This document shows, in pieces, positions 2,525 to 37,677 of a DNA stretch of 37,677 nucleotides; within the stretch, counting starts at the first letter, position 1; the number at the start of each line of letters is the position of its first letter. The stretch covers positions 1 through 37,677 of the IMG/VR virus record IMGVR_UViG_3300045284_000323; one strand, 5' to 3'. This stretch comes from a virus. Position numbers and translations under genes: made by a program. A model generated the notes under the pieces. It made no database searches and had not been told where the DNA came from. It worked only from the letters and a program-made list of their open reading frames with translations.

Positions 2525-3181
2525 ATGCGACAAAAACTAACAAAAATAATAGATAAGAGCATGGCAAAAACCGTTGATGCGCCTAGGAATTATATAGGCG
2601 CGTCAAGTATAGGAGGTGATTGCCTTCGCAAGATTTGGTATCAATTTAAAGGTGAAAAGGGTGAAGAATTTACACCTAGAACAAAACGCATACTGGACGT
2701 TGGAAAGTCATTAGAGCGATTGATATTACATTGGCTTGTTGATGCAGGAGTAAAGATAGAATTCCCGACTCCTTATAACAAAGAATTATGGTGTTGCGAT
2801 CCAGATAATGAATTTTTTCAAGGACATTTAGATGCTTTTATGCCGAATTTTGCGGCGATATTAGAAATAAAGACCGCCAAAGATTCAAGTTTCAATAAGC
2901 TTGTAAAAGAAGGCGTTCAAAAATGGAATAAAGAATATTATGCGCAAGTACAAAGCTATATGGGCATGGGTGGCTGCAATAATGCATATATACTTGTACT
3001 AAACAAAGATAATAGTGAGTTATACGACGAATTGATTAAGTTTGATGCCGAGTTTTACGAGACACTACGCCAAAAAGCCAAAATGATTTATGATGCAACC
3101 GTTGCGCCACCTCGGGTTCATGGTTCTCCGCTATGGTGGCAATGTAAAATGTGTAAATTTAACAAGGTGTGCCATACATGA
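2525..3181 (+). CDS. Cas4/RecB-like PD-(D/E)XK exonuclease with probable Fe-S cluster
   Basis: The product is 218 aa. The nuclease core is readable: GHLDAF (D103), LEIKTAK (E114, K116) and QVQSY (Q141, Y145), the D-ExK-QxxxY order of RecB-type nucleases. Four cysteines bracket it: C33 (GGDCLRK) and C207, C210, C216 near the C-terminus. This is the arrangement that holds a 4Fe-4S cluster in Cas4 and AddB. Such enzymes resect double-stranded ends to give ssDNA for annealing. It follows the SSB-like gene by eight bases and precedes small coupled ORFs. There is no CRISPR array or other Cas gene in the window, so it is a phage recombination nuclease, not an adaptation protein. The polarity of degradation cannot be read from the sequence. 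Confidence 0.87.
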   Translation: MRQKLTKIIDKSMAKTVDAPRNYIGASSIGGDCLRKIWYQFKGEKGEEFTPRTKRILDVGKSLERLILHWLVDAGVKIEFPTPYNKELWCCDPDNEFFQGHLDAFMPNFAAILEIKTAKDSSFNKLVKEGVQKWNKEYYAQVQSYMGMGGCNNAYILVLNKDNSELYDELIKFDAEFYETLRQKAKMIYDATVAPPRVHGSPLWWQCKMCKFNKVCHT

Positions 3182-3453
3182 TTAACCAAGAGCAAATAGA
3201 TGAAATTACCCAGATTGTCAAGGATAAGGCTTTCGCTAGAGATTCGCATATTGATTTTTCAACTAGAATTATTGGCTATGGACGGATACATACTTGCGCA
3301 TCAGAGAAAAATGCTCGCGAAAACCAGCATGACGAATGCTCGCATGGTGTGGATTTTCAAGTTGTCTATATGGTCTATTCATCACATAGCCCGGTCTTGT
3401 ATAGTTCATTTAATGAGATTGATGCGGCTTTACAGTGTTTGAGGCAATTATGA
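3178..3453 (+). CDS. Hypothetical early protein
   Basis: The product is 91 aa from the ATG at 3178, which overlaps the nuclease stop (ATGA). An in-frame upstream start at 3169 would lie deeper inside the nuclease gene. I do not recognise a family. It has a cysteine and several histidines in the middle (CASEKNARENQHDECSHG), which could hold a metal but do not make a standard motif. It has no membrane segment. It is part of the tightly coupled recombination and replication operon, so an accessory role there is possible. Confidence 0.65.
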   Translation: MINQEQIDEITQIVKDKAFARDSHIDFSTRIIGYGRIHTCASEKNARENQHDECSHGVDFQVVYMVYSSHSPVLYSSFNEIDAALQCLRQL

Positions 3454-3773
3454 GTTTGTATTATAAATTAAACCCAGACAACTCCACAAGCCCATGCAGT
3501 ATGGAGGAGTGGGGTGACAAATATAATCAGGAGGGAATTAATAAATCAAGAGTGGCTAAAACTGAGATTGATCAATATTTAATTTCCACTGTTTTTTTAG
3601 GTATAGATCATAATTTTCGCGATAGCCCTAGACCCATATTATTTGAAACAATGATATTTGGAGATGAACCGGGCGATGGATATCAGACCCGCTGTTCTAC
3701 ATGGGAAGAGGCACAGGAAATGCATAAAGTGGCTATTCAATATGTATTAGATGGATGTAAAGACGATGATTGA
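3450..3773 (+). CDS. Conserved phage hypothetical protein
   Basis: The product is 107 aa from the ATG at 3450, which shares its TG with the stop of the previous gene. The core (LISTVFLGIDHNF, LFETMIFGDE, then CSTWEEAQEMH) is a pattern I recognise as recurring in small early proteins of many unrelated phages, with no known function. It is soluble, acidic at the C-terminus, and carries no catalytic motif. Translational coupling on both sides marks it as an integral member of the early operon. Confidence 0.7.
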   Translation: MSLYYKLNPDNSTSPCSMEEWGDKYNQEGINKSRVAKTEIDQYLISTVFLGIDHNFRDSPRPILFETMIFGDEPGDGYQTRCSTWEEAQEMHKVAIQYVLDGCKDDD

Positions 3774-3912
3774 TCCTAACGCCATATGGTTACCAACCAT
3801 AGCCTCCGTATTTATGAGCATTCCTATATCTGCGCGCGGTAGGCTTTCCCCTTGGGAATCAGGATTTTTTTGCATGGGCTTAAGTATTGCATTGCATTTG
3901 GTGGCAAGATGA
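3766..3912 (+). CDS. Small hydrophobic protein
   Basis: The product is 48 aa, opening with MIDPNAIWLPTIASVFM and ending in a hydrophobic GLSIALHLVAR tail. It fills the gap between two recognised genes exactly: its ATG is 8 bases before the preceding TGA and its own TGA overlaps the next ATG by four bases. This seamless fit is the main evidence. Two short hydrophobic stretches could make it membrane-associated. No family recognised. Confidence 0.5.
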   Translation: MIDPNAIWLPTIASVFMSIPISARGRLSPWESGFFCMGLSIALHLVAR

Positions 3913-4502
3913 CACACGAAGAAATTAATTTGATTTATGATTATTTACATGAGAATTACGAATATGTGGCTGAAGGACATTTAATTCGTAGATTTGATTT
4001 AGCGAGAACCTGTAAGCGCAAAGGTGATCGGCTTGGAAGTTTTTTCTATCATACAAATAGCGAGCCGTACCTAATGAGCAGTGTTACTGTCAATAAAAAA
4101 CGATACCGCATGAAACTCATTAAATTGATATTTATTTATCATAAAAAACATTGCCCTTCTCGAATTTATCAAATTGATAAAAATCCAATGAATACACGCA
4201 TTGAAAACCTTGAAGAAGTTAGTCATAGCATAATTCAGCATCGCTCGAAAATGGACAAAGGCAATAAAAAAATACCCATGGTCAAAAATAAGGATGGAAC
4301 AGAGGGACATAGTGTGCGCATACCGTGCGATGGAAAACAATTGAACTTAGGAACCTATAGAACTAAAGAACTTGCAGAAGAAGTTTATAGTTTTGCGAAA
4401 AACCTTATTATTGAAGACCACCTTCATCCAGCACAAATAAAAAAAATTATTATTGAGAAATATCCCGTGTCATCATTAAATAAAAAAGCCCTAAATAAAT
4501 GA
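3909..4502 (+). CDS. HNH-type endonuclease with AP2 domain, degenerate active site
   Basis: The product is 197 aa from the ATG at 3909 (ATGA overlap upstream); a longer in-frame start at 3852 is unlikely. Residues about 55-105 follow the HNH_3 layout (V-NKKRYRMKLIKLIFIYHKK, then IDKNPMNTRIENL). Residues about 125-170 look like an AP2 DNA-binding module (VRIPCDGKQLNLGTYRTKELAEEVY). Such proteins are free-standing homing endonucleases common in phages. The usual catalytic NHIDGN is YQIDKN here, so the key histidine before ID is glutamine (Q88). Activity is therefore doubtful. The gene sits cleanly in the operon with coupled ends, not as an insert in another gene. It may have been kept as a DNA-binding protein or be a decaying homing gene. 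Confidence 0.75.
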   Translation: MTHEEINLIYDYLHENYEYVAEGHLIRRFDLARTCKRKGDRLGSFFYHTNSEPYLMSSVTVNKKRYRMKLIKLIFIYHKKHCPSRIYQIDKNPMNTRIENLEEVSHSIIQHRSKMDKGNKKIPMVKNKDGTEGHSVRIPCDGKQLNLGTYRTKELAEEVYSFAKNLIIEDHLHPAQIKKIIIEKYPVSSLNKKALNK

Positions 4503-33880: not shown

Positions 33881-35029
33881 TTAGTTCTCCCTTTGGGCTT
33901 TCTTGCCGCTATAGTTCTCATATCGTTTTATTATGACATCACAATACTTTGGGTCAAGCTCCATCATGAAGCACTTGCGCTTTAATTTCTCACAAGCGAT
34001 GAGAGTTGAACCTGAGCCACCGAATAAGTCCACAATGTTTATGGCTTTTTTGTGATTACCCAAAGCGCGTTCGCACAAAGCAACAGGCTTTTGGGTTGGA
34101 TGAATATAATTTGTATCTTTGGCAATTGACCACAGATCGCTTTCGTTTTTAATATGCGCATCCACATCACCATAAAATAAACAAAATTCATGCTGATGTC
34201 TGTAGCCTTTTCCTAAACCAAAAACATTTTTAGCCCAAACAATACATGCTTTAAAAGGCATTTCTTGCTGTAAAATGGCATAGAAGTTCCAATTACACCA
34301 AATATAGGAAATGGGTGCGTTAATAGCCCTTAGGCTTTGGCATACTTCTTTAATAAATATTTGAAATTCATCGACTGAAAGGGCATCATTTTTGATAACA
34401 TCAAATTTACCACCGCGACCTTTAAAGCCTACATTGTAAGGCGGGTCGGTAAATACCATATCAGCTCGAGCATCCCTCATCAAAATTTCTATGTGATTCC
34501 AAGCAGTACTATCTCCACACATAAGCCTATGCTCACCCAATAACCAAACATCACCCAATACGGTAATAGGATCATCCGGTACATCAGGACATTCATCCTC
34601 GTCACAAAACGCCTCAACTTCAGCCTCTGGAAATAAATCACAAAGCTCATCAGCACTAAAACCCGTCAACGACAAATCAAAGTCCATACCGCTTAATAAA
34701 TCTAATTGTGCCTGCAATATATCCATGTCCCAACCCGCATTTAACGCAAGCTTATTATCGGCTATCACGTACGCAATCTTTTGCGCTTCAGTTAAGCCGT
34801 CCAATACAATACAAGGCACATGTTCAAATCCCGATGCAATAGCCGCCTCAAGGCGACAATGACCTGCAATTATGGTATTTTTTTCGTCAATTAGAAGGGG
34901 GTTAGTAAAACCGAACTCTTTGATGGAATTTACTACTTGTTGTATTTGATCTGGAGAATGCGTGCGAGAATTACTCTGATATTTGACTAAATCTCGCACA
35001 GAAACACTTTTATAGACCCGCAAAGACAA
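33881..35029 (-). CDS. ParB-like/DNA methyltransferase fusion
   Basis: The product is 382 aa. Residues 1-100 are a ParB/sulfiredoxin-like nuclease-type fold (LVKYQSNSRTHSPDQIQQVV, IIAGHCRLEAA at 53-63). Residues about 155-375 are an N4/N6 methyltransferase of the beta order: DPPY (195-198) then HPTQKP (310-315) and LFGGSGST (335-342). Such fusions are common in phages and methylate a specific adenine or cytosine, protecting DNA from host restriction or timing packaging. There is no partner restriction enzyme in the window, so it is an orphan enzyme. Directly upstream of TerS in the late operon. Confidence 0.93.
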   Translation of the reverse strand: MSLRVYKSVSVRDLVKYQSNSRTHSPDQIQQVVNSIKEFGFTNPLLIDEKNTIIAGHCRLEAAIASGFEHVPCIVLDGLTEAQKIAYVIADNKLALNAGWDMDILQAQLDLLSGMDFDLSLTGFSADELCDLFPEAEVEAFCDEDECPDVPDDPITVLGDVWLLGEHRLMCGDSTAWNHIEILMRDARADMVFTDPPYNVGFKGRGGKFDVIKNDALSVDEFQIFIKEVCQSLRAINAPISYIWCNWNFYAILQQEMPFKACIVWAKNVFGLGKGYRHQHEFCLFYGDVDAHIKNESDLWSIAKDTNYIHPTQKPVALCERALGNHKKAINIVDLFGGSGSTLIACEKLKRKCFMMELDPKYCDVIIKRYENYSGKKAQREN

Positions 35030-35227: not shown

Positions 35228-35330
35228 GTTATAGTTTGATTTTGCCTTAAATTATTCAAATATGCTAGTGGATTGGAGTTATCAACAGAAATTGTGGATA
35301 AAATAGCGTAATTATTATTGCAATAAGACT
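35228..35330 (-). promoter_or_regulatory. Late promoter region of the leftward operon
   Basis: On the minus strand a TATAAC (35228-35233) near the first late gene has no good -35, consistent with a promoter that needs an activator. Upstream elements are TTATTGCAATAA (35315-35326, a perfect 12-bp palindrome) and TAGCGTAA (35304-35311), a one-mismatch inverted copy of the early operator. Low-certainty call. Confidence 0.35.
35293..35301 (-). promoter_or_regulatory. Consensus DnaA box
   Basis: TGTGGATAA is the exact reverse complement of TTATCCACA. It lies in the divergent gap at 35.2-35.4 kb beside the operator copies. An identical box is inside the replication gene (37182-37190). It could recruit DnaA as a regulator or be a second origin element. 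Confidence 0.55.
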
Positions 35331-36026: not shown

Positions 36027-36247
36027 TGTTTTTTTAGTTCAAAAATAAAGTTAATAACTTTTTCCATATTTTCAATATTCATTCGAGTAAGATTTATGGT
36101 CATTACTAAGCGAGCTAATGATTCGTGCTCTCTTTCCTCAAATTTATCTTGTTCAACATCTTCACTTAAATTCTTTTCTACAACCAACAATCCGTTAATC
36201 GCTTGCATAAGCCCTATTTTAACTTTGTCAAAAACATCATCGTTCAT
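36023..36247 (-). CDS. Small helical hypothetical protein after csp
   Basis: The product is 74 aa, all-helical and acidic ([20 protein letters not shown], then [20 protein letters not shown]). No family recognised. It is coupled to the cold-shock gene by an ATGA overlap and is the last gene of the leftward early operon, convergent with the small operon at 35388-36026 (four-base overlap at stops). Confidence 0.65.
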
Positions 36248-36453
36248 TCATTGCCCTCAGCAACCGCAATATTCTTAGCAGTCCAGCCCTTTTCGCTTTT
36301 TTCGGGCATGAAGCTAACTTGCGATCCTTCTGCTAACGTTTTAAACCCTTTGCTTGTAATTTCGCGAAAATGCGCAAAATAGTCTTGGCCGTCCGCTGCT
36401 ATAAACCCAAACCCCTTTTTATCGTCAAACCATTTTACTCTTCCTTGTAGCAT
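36244..36453 (-). CDS. Cold-shock domain protein (CspA family)
   Basis: The product is 69 aa, a full-length five-stranded OB fold. RNP1 is [10 protein letters not shown] and RNP2 is YFAHFREI, the latter with Y-F-A in place of the usual V-F-V-H. The first strands ([17 protein letters not shown]) are standard. Csp proteins bind single-stranded RNA or DNA and melt RNA secondary structure. In the leftward operon after the replication gene it may help host ribosomes or act on phage ssDNA. It is not adjacent to any host-like sequence, so it was probably acquired long ago. Confidence 0.93.
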
Positions 36454-36577: not shown

Positions 36578-37570
36578 CTAGCGCATACCCAAAGACTTCA
36601 TCATTAATTGACGCGCCGCATCATTTTGTGACTTCAATTCTAAATTAACAGCAGGTTTGTGGATGTTTGCGCGATTTCGGTATTCATCTATTGATGACGG
36701 CACAGGTAAGTTAGATACAGCAACCGCCATGCGACTAAATGCCCGGGCTTCCTCCTGATATTGTTCATGTTTTGCCTTTTGTTCGCGCTCTTCCTTTTCA
36801 CGAATTGATTTTGATGTAATGCCTTTATAGCCGTGCGGTGTATTCCATCGGCTTTCACGAATAAGTTTCAGGGCAACATTTACCTTTTTAACAACCGCAT
36901 CATAACCAACGTGGATTCCCACGTAAAAAATTATTTCATCGACAAGATGGTCTGGGATGGATTCTTTCCGATTAGCCAGGGTTTGGTTTATATGGTTTTT
37001 GATTTCTTGGGTTTCAGAAAAAACAGAAACAGCAACAGGGGGTTGACCCTTGTTTTGTTTTTTCTGAATAAATTCTTGAGAAAGATCTTGTTTCTTTAGG
37101 TATGCACCATGTGCAGGGGGTACTGCATGTGGTGCAGTGACCCCTGCATGAGATGCAGGGGTAGTTAAACTTTGTACACACTTATCCACAGGCACTGCAT
37201 ATGGTGCAGAGGTTGGTAAATTTTGTACAGGTTGAAAATAATTGTAATCGCGAGCTACATTGTATGAATTGATTTTACCGTAACGGATATGCTGATAGTT
37301 CAGGCGTTGTATGACAAAATGCTCAAACTCTAATTCGTTTAATGCCTGATAAGTTTTGCGCTCACTTATTTTCGAAGCTCGCGCAAGATTCGGAATAGTA
37401 ATTTCTATTTCATCGAAATCTTTAGAGAAATCACTTAAAAGGCGCAAATTCTGATAGACAGACATCGCAAAAATCGTCATATTTTTAATACAATTTTCAT
37501 CGATGGTTAAGAATCTAGCTTGGGCGCGTTTAACAAAATTGCGGGTAGGGTTTGATTTTGTATTTTTCAT
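36578..37570 (-). CDS. Replication initiation protein (lambda O-like organisation)
   Basis: The product is 330 aa. Residues about 25-95 are helical and carry a winged-helix-like segment (FDEIEITIPNLARASKISER, then KTYQALNELEFEHFVIQRLN), typical of phage and plasmid initiators. A repeat-rich linker (about 115-160; units such as VQNLPTSAPYAVP, VQSLTTPASHAG and VTAPHAVP) is encoded by the iterons at 37103-37209. A charged helical C-terminus could bind a helicase. The order cro, small ORF, this gene matches lambda cro-cII-O, and having iterons inside the gene matches the lambda origin within O. The start ATG at 37570 lies in the terminal repeat; a GAGG ten bases upstream supports it and an in-frame stop lies just before. 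The initiator function is inferred from fold pattern, origin and context. Confidence 0.75.
   Translation of the reverse strand: MKNTKSNPTRNFVKRAQARFLTIDENCIKNMTIFAMSVYQNLRLLSDFSKDFDEIEITIPNLARASKISERKTYQALNELEFEHFVIQRLNYQHIRYGKINSYNVARDYNYFQPVQNLPTSAPYAVPVDKCVQSLTTPASHAGVTAPHAVPPAHGAYLKKQDLSQEFIQKKQNKGQPPVAVSVFSETQEIKNHINQTLANRKESIPDHLVDEIIFYVGIHVGYDAVVKKVNVALKLIRESRWNTPHGYKGITSKSIREKEEREQKAKHEQYQEEARAFSRMAVAVSNLPVPSSIDEYRNRANIHKPAVNLELKSQNDAARQLMMKSLGMR
37103..37209. other. Putative replication origin: four palindromic iterons and a DnaA box
   Basis: Four copies of a TGCA-centred palindrome occur in 107 bases: 37103-37115 (TGCAC-CAT-GTGCA), 37122-37138 (ACTGCA-5-TGCAGT), 37140-37162 (10-bp arms around GAG) and 37195-37209 (CTGCA-5-TGCAG). 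Between the third and fourth lies TTATCCACA (37182-37190), a consensus DnaA box. The last two copies are each followed by a related AT-rich tail ending TTTGTACA (37171-37178, 37222-37229). The whole cluster lies inside the replication gene, as the iterons of lambda lie inside O. Confidence 0.75.
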
Positions 37571-37677
37571 GGTATACTTGCCTCGTTATGTTCCGCTAAG
37601 AACTGTTTGCAGGATGTACCCGCTTATTTGCGTAAGTCGGGCTGGGGGCGGGATGCCCTAAATTAATTTATGTCATT
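37567..37677. repeat. Right copy of the terminal direct repeat
   Basis: This is the second copy of the sequence at 1-111, with one mismatch at 37578. The initiator gene starts at 37570 and its upstream leader lies inside the repeat, so the leader continues at position 112 after circularisation. The mismatch falls 8 bases upstream of that start codon, between its GAGG Shine-Dalgarno and the ATG. Confidence 0.93.

Follow-up and report, generated by a model that had tools for sequence, protein, structure and literature searches.

A probable intragenic replication origin with TGCA-centred iterons and a DnaA box in the initiator gene of a phage

The window, the whole 37,677-nucleotide stretch of DNA that was analysed (IMG/VR record IMGVR_UViG_3300045284_000323), begins and ends with a 111-bp direct repeat, positions 1-111 and 37567-37677 being identical at 110 of 111 bases. 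Such ends suggest a circular or terminally redundant genome, and because sequence of a close relative (L002) also spans the end junction, the circular map given by the window is probably complete. Other genes point to a short-tailed virus: the portal is P22-like, the terminase shares about 45% identity with its counterpart in Pseudoalteromonas phage H6/1, and Sak4, SSB, a Cas4-like nuclease, and a helicase are also encoded. An initial genome scan for a host found no relative, and a scan of bacterial genomes with a three-iteron pattern gave seven matches, none pointing to a host. The gene at 33881-35029 (minus strand) encodes a DNA methyltransferase whose N-terminal domain is ParB-like; the N-terminal part of this protein is similar in the window and L002, whereas the methyltransferase part is strongly divergent, as if the specificity had been swapped. 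GC skew tracks the coding strand, its sign flipping where genes locally change direction, near 9-11 kb and 35-36 kb; it is therefore no test of an origin and was dropped as origin evidence.

The features of the replication initiator gene and the elements embedded in it are as follows:

36578-37570, minus strand: replication initiator gene, 330 aa (from PHROG profiles, an AlphaFold2 model, and Foldseek)
36995-37228, minus strand: proposed origin, a block of strong synonymous constraint (identical-codon ratio)
37013-37028: inverted-repeat arm TTCAGAAAAAACAGAA, of which the gene-strand form GTTTCTGTTTTTTCT is nearly invariant in the family
37043-37102: A+T-rich stretch (72% A+T) adjoining iteron 4, a candidate unwinding region
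37053-37068: inverted-repeat arm TTTTGTTTTTTCTGAA; the two arms are 94% complementary, with 24 nt between them
37103-37115: iteron 4, TGCA-N5-TGCA, by pattern match
37124-37136: iteron 3, TGCA-N5-TGCA, by pattern match
37145-37157: iteron 2, TGCA-N5-TGCA, with 10-bp perfect arms
37182-37190, plus strand: exact DnaA box TTATCCACA, its position shared by 10 of 13 relatives
37196-37208: iteron 1, TGCA-N5-TGCA; some relatives have a perfect copy, others a half-site or none

The predicted initiator comprises an N-terminal winged-helix domain (approximately residues 21-106), a disordered linker (residues 113-182) in whose coding DNA the proposed origin lies, and a helical C-terminal region. Nine of ten family members match PHROG_270 (replication initiation protein; best 2.3e-22, in L004), and O-like PHROG profiles also match some members. 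The window protein on its own matches PHROG_270 weakly (0.016), so the identification rests on the family; at that level the profiles support the 330-aa product as a relative of phage replication initiators. A Pfam search of ten members returned HTH_36-like matches only, with no match to Rep_3 among the ten, none to the RepA_N domain in the family, and none reported to the lambda-O family. The AlphaFold2 model has a mean pLDDT of 54.8 (below 50 in the linker), and Foldseek gave weak matches to proteins of winged-helix fold, among them pPS10 RepA and R6K Pi; the model is too weak for any fold assignment that goes beyond winged helix. Scans of IMG/VR proteins yielded close copies at 97% (L002 and L003) and further homologues whose N-terminal domains are about 38-60% identical. 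Among named phages in the searched collection there is no relative of the gene, and no named phage or plasmid relative was found, except that the C-terminal domain of L004 has matches; the four partner genes that were read for these matches are without TGCA-N5-TGCA iterons. A short way downstream of the initiator gene lies a cold-shock-protein-like gene (36244-36453, minus strand), and L005 likewise has one at approximately 3598-3731.

The four TGCA-centred palindromes of the preliminary description are present in the linker-coding DNA, at 37103, 37124, 37145, and 37196. Their successive spacings are 21, 21, and 51 bp, three of the four being set two helical turns apart. The one credited with 10-bp perfect arms is iteron 2, whose arms are ACCCCTGCAT (37140-37149) and ATGCAGGGGT (37153-37162). 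Across the whole window there are five TGCA-N5-TGCA units against 1.55 expected, only one of them outside the four; the telling feature is their clustering, the count itself being modest. In 3000 synonymous-codon shuffles of the gene, four palindromes never occurred together (mean 0.19, maximum 3). Every homologous locus read keeps at least two units, the 21-bp spacing, and the same linker, and no locus was met in which the gene is intact and the palindromes are not conserved. The repeats help to set the linker residues, as had been proposed, but in the relatives the residues between the arms vary freely and the TGCA arms do not change. Several lineages do without iteron 1. In the linkers of L004 and L005, units such as TGCAAAAAACGACAT (present twice in L005) take the place of the outer iterons, which suggests an altered recognition half-site. 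The repeated tails noted earlier, TTTGTACA at 37171-37178 and 37222-37229, do occur twice but are not distinctive; what relatives share is no more than a core resembling CAAAATTT, and the tails, not conserved as such, were dropped as a separate element.

An exact DnaA box, TTATCCACA, does lie inside the gene at 37182-37190. Because 7.7% of the 3000 synonymous-codon shuffles contain such a box, it is only suggestive in this genome alone, and comparative proof was needed. Ten of the 13 loci from the protein scan carry exact TGTGGATAA (gene strand) precisely 24 bp before the 21-bp-spaced palindrome array. The box is translated as (P/G)-Val-Asp, with GTG as the Val codon in 8/8 non-redundant genes versus 27 of 241 Val codons elsewhere. 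The exact box is absent from the origin in L004 and L005, which have other half-sites, and in L061, which has a one-mismatch form, TGGGGATAA; the DnaA site is therefore not universal.

A second DnaA-box site is found in the window at 35279-35301, in an intergenic position ahead of promoter-like DNA. This second site usually consists of two facing boxes (e.g., TTATCAACA-5-TGTGGATAA) and lies downstream of the box in the initiator gene by 1.7-1.9 kb in L002 and L003 and by 1.7-2.7 kb in L139, L132, L137, and L041; it also occurs in L004 at 7405 and in L005 at 4571, and none was seen in the available DNA of L007, L009, L141, and L061. The pair is possibly a DnaA-responsive promoter or a titration site.

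The 60 bp beside iteron 4 are 72% A+T (gene average, 60%; relatives, 62-72%), although the gene is more A+T-rich elsewhere. The stretch has an imperfect 12-bp periodicity that is not significant beyond coding; 12-bp tandem repeats were set aside as a feature, not being shown above the protein-dictated level with a shuffle control that is biased upward. Arms similar to those of the inverted repeat occur in L002 and L003 and, by inspection, in L007, L009, L132, and others.

Codon usage across relatives defines the extent of the conserved DNA. Over eight divergent homologues, the observed/expected ratio of identical codons is 2.02 in codons 115-192 versus 1.04 elsewhere in the gene, where synonymous sites are saturated. 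The best 24-codon window reaches 2.40, and 300 shuffles reach at most 2.0. Synonymous conservation among related phages, a comparison proposed in the preliminary description, thus peaks at the palindrome and box region, and the edges of constraint are sharp, at about 37228 and 36995. Since constraint is confined to codons 115-192, the conserved block measures about 235 bp; the 107 bp at first assigned to the origin (37103-37209) are too narrow, and the block reaches about 110 bp past that lower coordinate to take in the A+T-rich stretch and the inverted repeat, neither of which the preliminary description had noted. Closer pairs behave similarly. Between the window and L002 there are 42 synonymous changes, none in the 65 codons 108-172 (permutation p 0.002), a segment with four amino-acid changes, none in a TGCA arm; L007 and L009 have no synonymous change in codons 73-197 (p 0.006). 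In the 33 iterons of the family, GCA is the codon for all 66 Ala residues, and each of the 66 codons before them has T as its last base. Since the TGCA motif was itself the means of finding iterons, the fair test is to compare AxxA motifs within and outside the linker: 33/34 linker motifs are TGCA-N5-TGCA, versus 0/14 elsewhere. These iteron counts and the Val-codon count at the box are not phylogenetically independent, but synonymous sites in the rest of the gene are saturated. The sequences show the anatomy of the block and show that its elements are kept by selection on DNA rather than on protein. About 235 bases of the initiator gene are almost letter-for-letter constant across relatives down to about 40% identity.

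A DNA-only scan of 2.9 million viral contigs (box, 24 bases, iteron, half-iteron) found 11 loci, all within the initiator gene family, and when the gap was freed to 1-30 nt there were 10 matches, all still with the same spacing. A bare two-iteron pattern was dropped as an origin marker, most of the loci gained being Ala-rich repeats in other proteins, probably tail proteins.

The layout in relatives, the synonymous constraint, and the PHROG profiles support the earlier proposal of an iteron-type origin with a DnaA box in a replication gene. Most probably the segment of about 36995-37228 is a phage replication origin in the linker-coding DNA of the initiator gene, lambda-like in kind. The N-terminal winged-helix domain would bind the iterons, probably as dimers, and would wrap or bend them to form a complex like the O-some; in phase with this complex, the box would be occupied by host DnaA, the A+T-rich side (37043-37102) would melt, and host DnaB would be loaded via DnaA and/or the C-terminal region of the initiator. 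DnaB_C and IstB/DnaC-like domains were not found in 11 records, nor was the lambda-P domain PF06992 in seven records including the window. As no DnaB, DnaC-like, or lambda-P gene is recognisable in the phage, the helicase is probably supplied by the host, and a role of host DnaA in its loading is plausible, although a loader of an unfamiliar family could have been missed by the searches. A bolder version holds that the origin is lambda-style but needs DnaA directly, that DnaA and no phage loader brings in the host helicase in a hybrid of phage and plasmid modes, and that the second box pair ties other phage genes to DnaA; this is conceivable, with the balance of judgement somewhat against it.

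The part of the origin reading most open to another explanation is the use of the box. The iterons may form a lambda-like intragenic origin at which DnaA does not initiate through the conserved TTATCCACA, this sequence serving another protein or only the tuning of transcription across the origin, a role that DnaA has in lambda. Three of the 13 relatives keep iterons without an exact box in the origin, DnaA in lambda works mainly via transcription (PMC7466680, PMC3985674), and the second box pair recurs about 2 kb away near a promoter-like region. Ten relatives nevertheless agree without exception in the sequence of the box, its orientation, and its distance from the iterons, and Val is rarely encoded by GTG elsewhere; this alternative is rather unlikely.

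Less probable by far is that the palindromes are an operator for the initiator or a repressor, controlling transcription inside the gene, with the origin elsewhere. TGCA-N5-TGCA does resemble a typical dimeric regulator site, and DNA-binding proteins frequently regulate themselves. Yet operators are seldom so long or so deep within a gene, and the constrained block, about 235 bp long, has its A+T-rich and inverted-repeat parts to one side, in the order of lambda ori. That the constraint reflects RNA structure or an overlapping gene is very improbable. CTGCA-N5-TGCAG could form 5-bp hairpins in the mRNA, but the arms are uniform wherever the unit is present, the flanking C/G varies without compensation, and compensatory arm changes were not seen, a result that favours a protein recognising the sequence over RNA hairpins; no overlapping frame is open across the block in all members, the alternative frames containing stops in most. 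A protein-level repeat, in which tandem Ala-x-x-Ala expanded by slippage and the DNA repeats are a by-product, might be suggested by the Ala-repeat proteins that the bare two-iteron pattern also matches, but as a full explanation it is refuted by the codon data, since synonymous codons are fixed while the residues that separate the Ala codons vary, and no AxxA motif beyond the linker is palindromic. In addition, an O-like initiator (L117) has the same palindrome in two other frames.

Read as an origin, the locus has iterons, A+T-rich DNA, and an inverted repeat in the same order as lambda ori, which also has a palindrome beyond its A+T-rich region. The palindromes, predicted binding sites, lie in the middle of the gene in the linker of all homologues, and the A+T-rich region adjoins the last iteron. 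Origins inside the initiator gene are known from lambda and Stx phages (PMC7466680), which have four and six dyad-symmetric initiator-binding repeats, respectively, in mid-gene with an adjoining A+T-rich region (PMC7466680, PMC5043065). The contention that the palindromes and box are a different solution from that of lambda is better recast as variation, as the O gene of lambda likewise contains iterons that are inverted repeats, and DnaA sites lie close to the lambda origin (PMC5043065, PMC3985674). The unit here is 13-15 bp, whereas the lambda iteron is 19 bp; the exact DnaA box lies among the iterons at a fixed distance, whereas the DnaA-box-like sites of lambda lie downstream of pO (PMC3985674). 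The window phage also differs in having no lambda-P homologue, a P-type helicase loader gene being absent from the searched records, and no reported match to the lambda-O family.

Plasmids provide known cases of a DnaA box next to phased iterons (PMC5043065). Those with DnaA-dependent iteron origins (P1, F, R6K, pSC101, and RK2) share phased sites, a nearby DnaA box, and an A+T-rich opening region (PMC5043065, PMC10797057), and the box in the window family stands at its invariant 24 bp from the 21-bp-spaced array. In contrast to the mostly direct repeats of these plasmids, the window-family units are palindromic and the origin is inside the gene, and the initiator lacks the Rep_3 match of Rep_3-type plasmid initiators. 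The pSK41-type RepA_N staphylococcal plasmids likewise have an origin central in the rep gene, and their initiator is structurally similar to DnaD; the initiator belongs to a different family, however, and DnaA boxes had not been detected in that plasmid group (PMC5703833). An intragenic iteron origin is thus a known kind (lambda ori, pSK41); what is new here is the embedded fixed-phase DnaA box together with the TGCA unit, and a literature search, largely of papers outside subscription, found no phage origin with this combination. One stretch would serve as both origin and coding sequence, the saturated synonymous sites on its flanks giving the origin a sharp footprint, and the lambda-like layout with a plasmid-like box makes it testable whether a phage with no recognisable helicase loader relies on the host initiator.

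The distinct O-like initiator mentioned above, encoded by L117 (IMGVR_UViG_3300042504_002519, 2861-4042, minus strand), has as its best match another replication-initiation PHROG. Its linker also contains palindromes, five of the type CTGCAGAATATGCAG set 21-23 bp apart, in two reading frames that differ from that of the window family, and there is no DnaA box. Because the same palindrome occurs in a different initiator and in other frames, the TGCA unit may be more general than this family.
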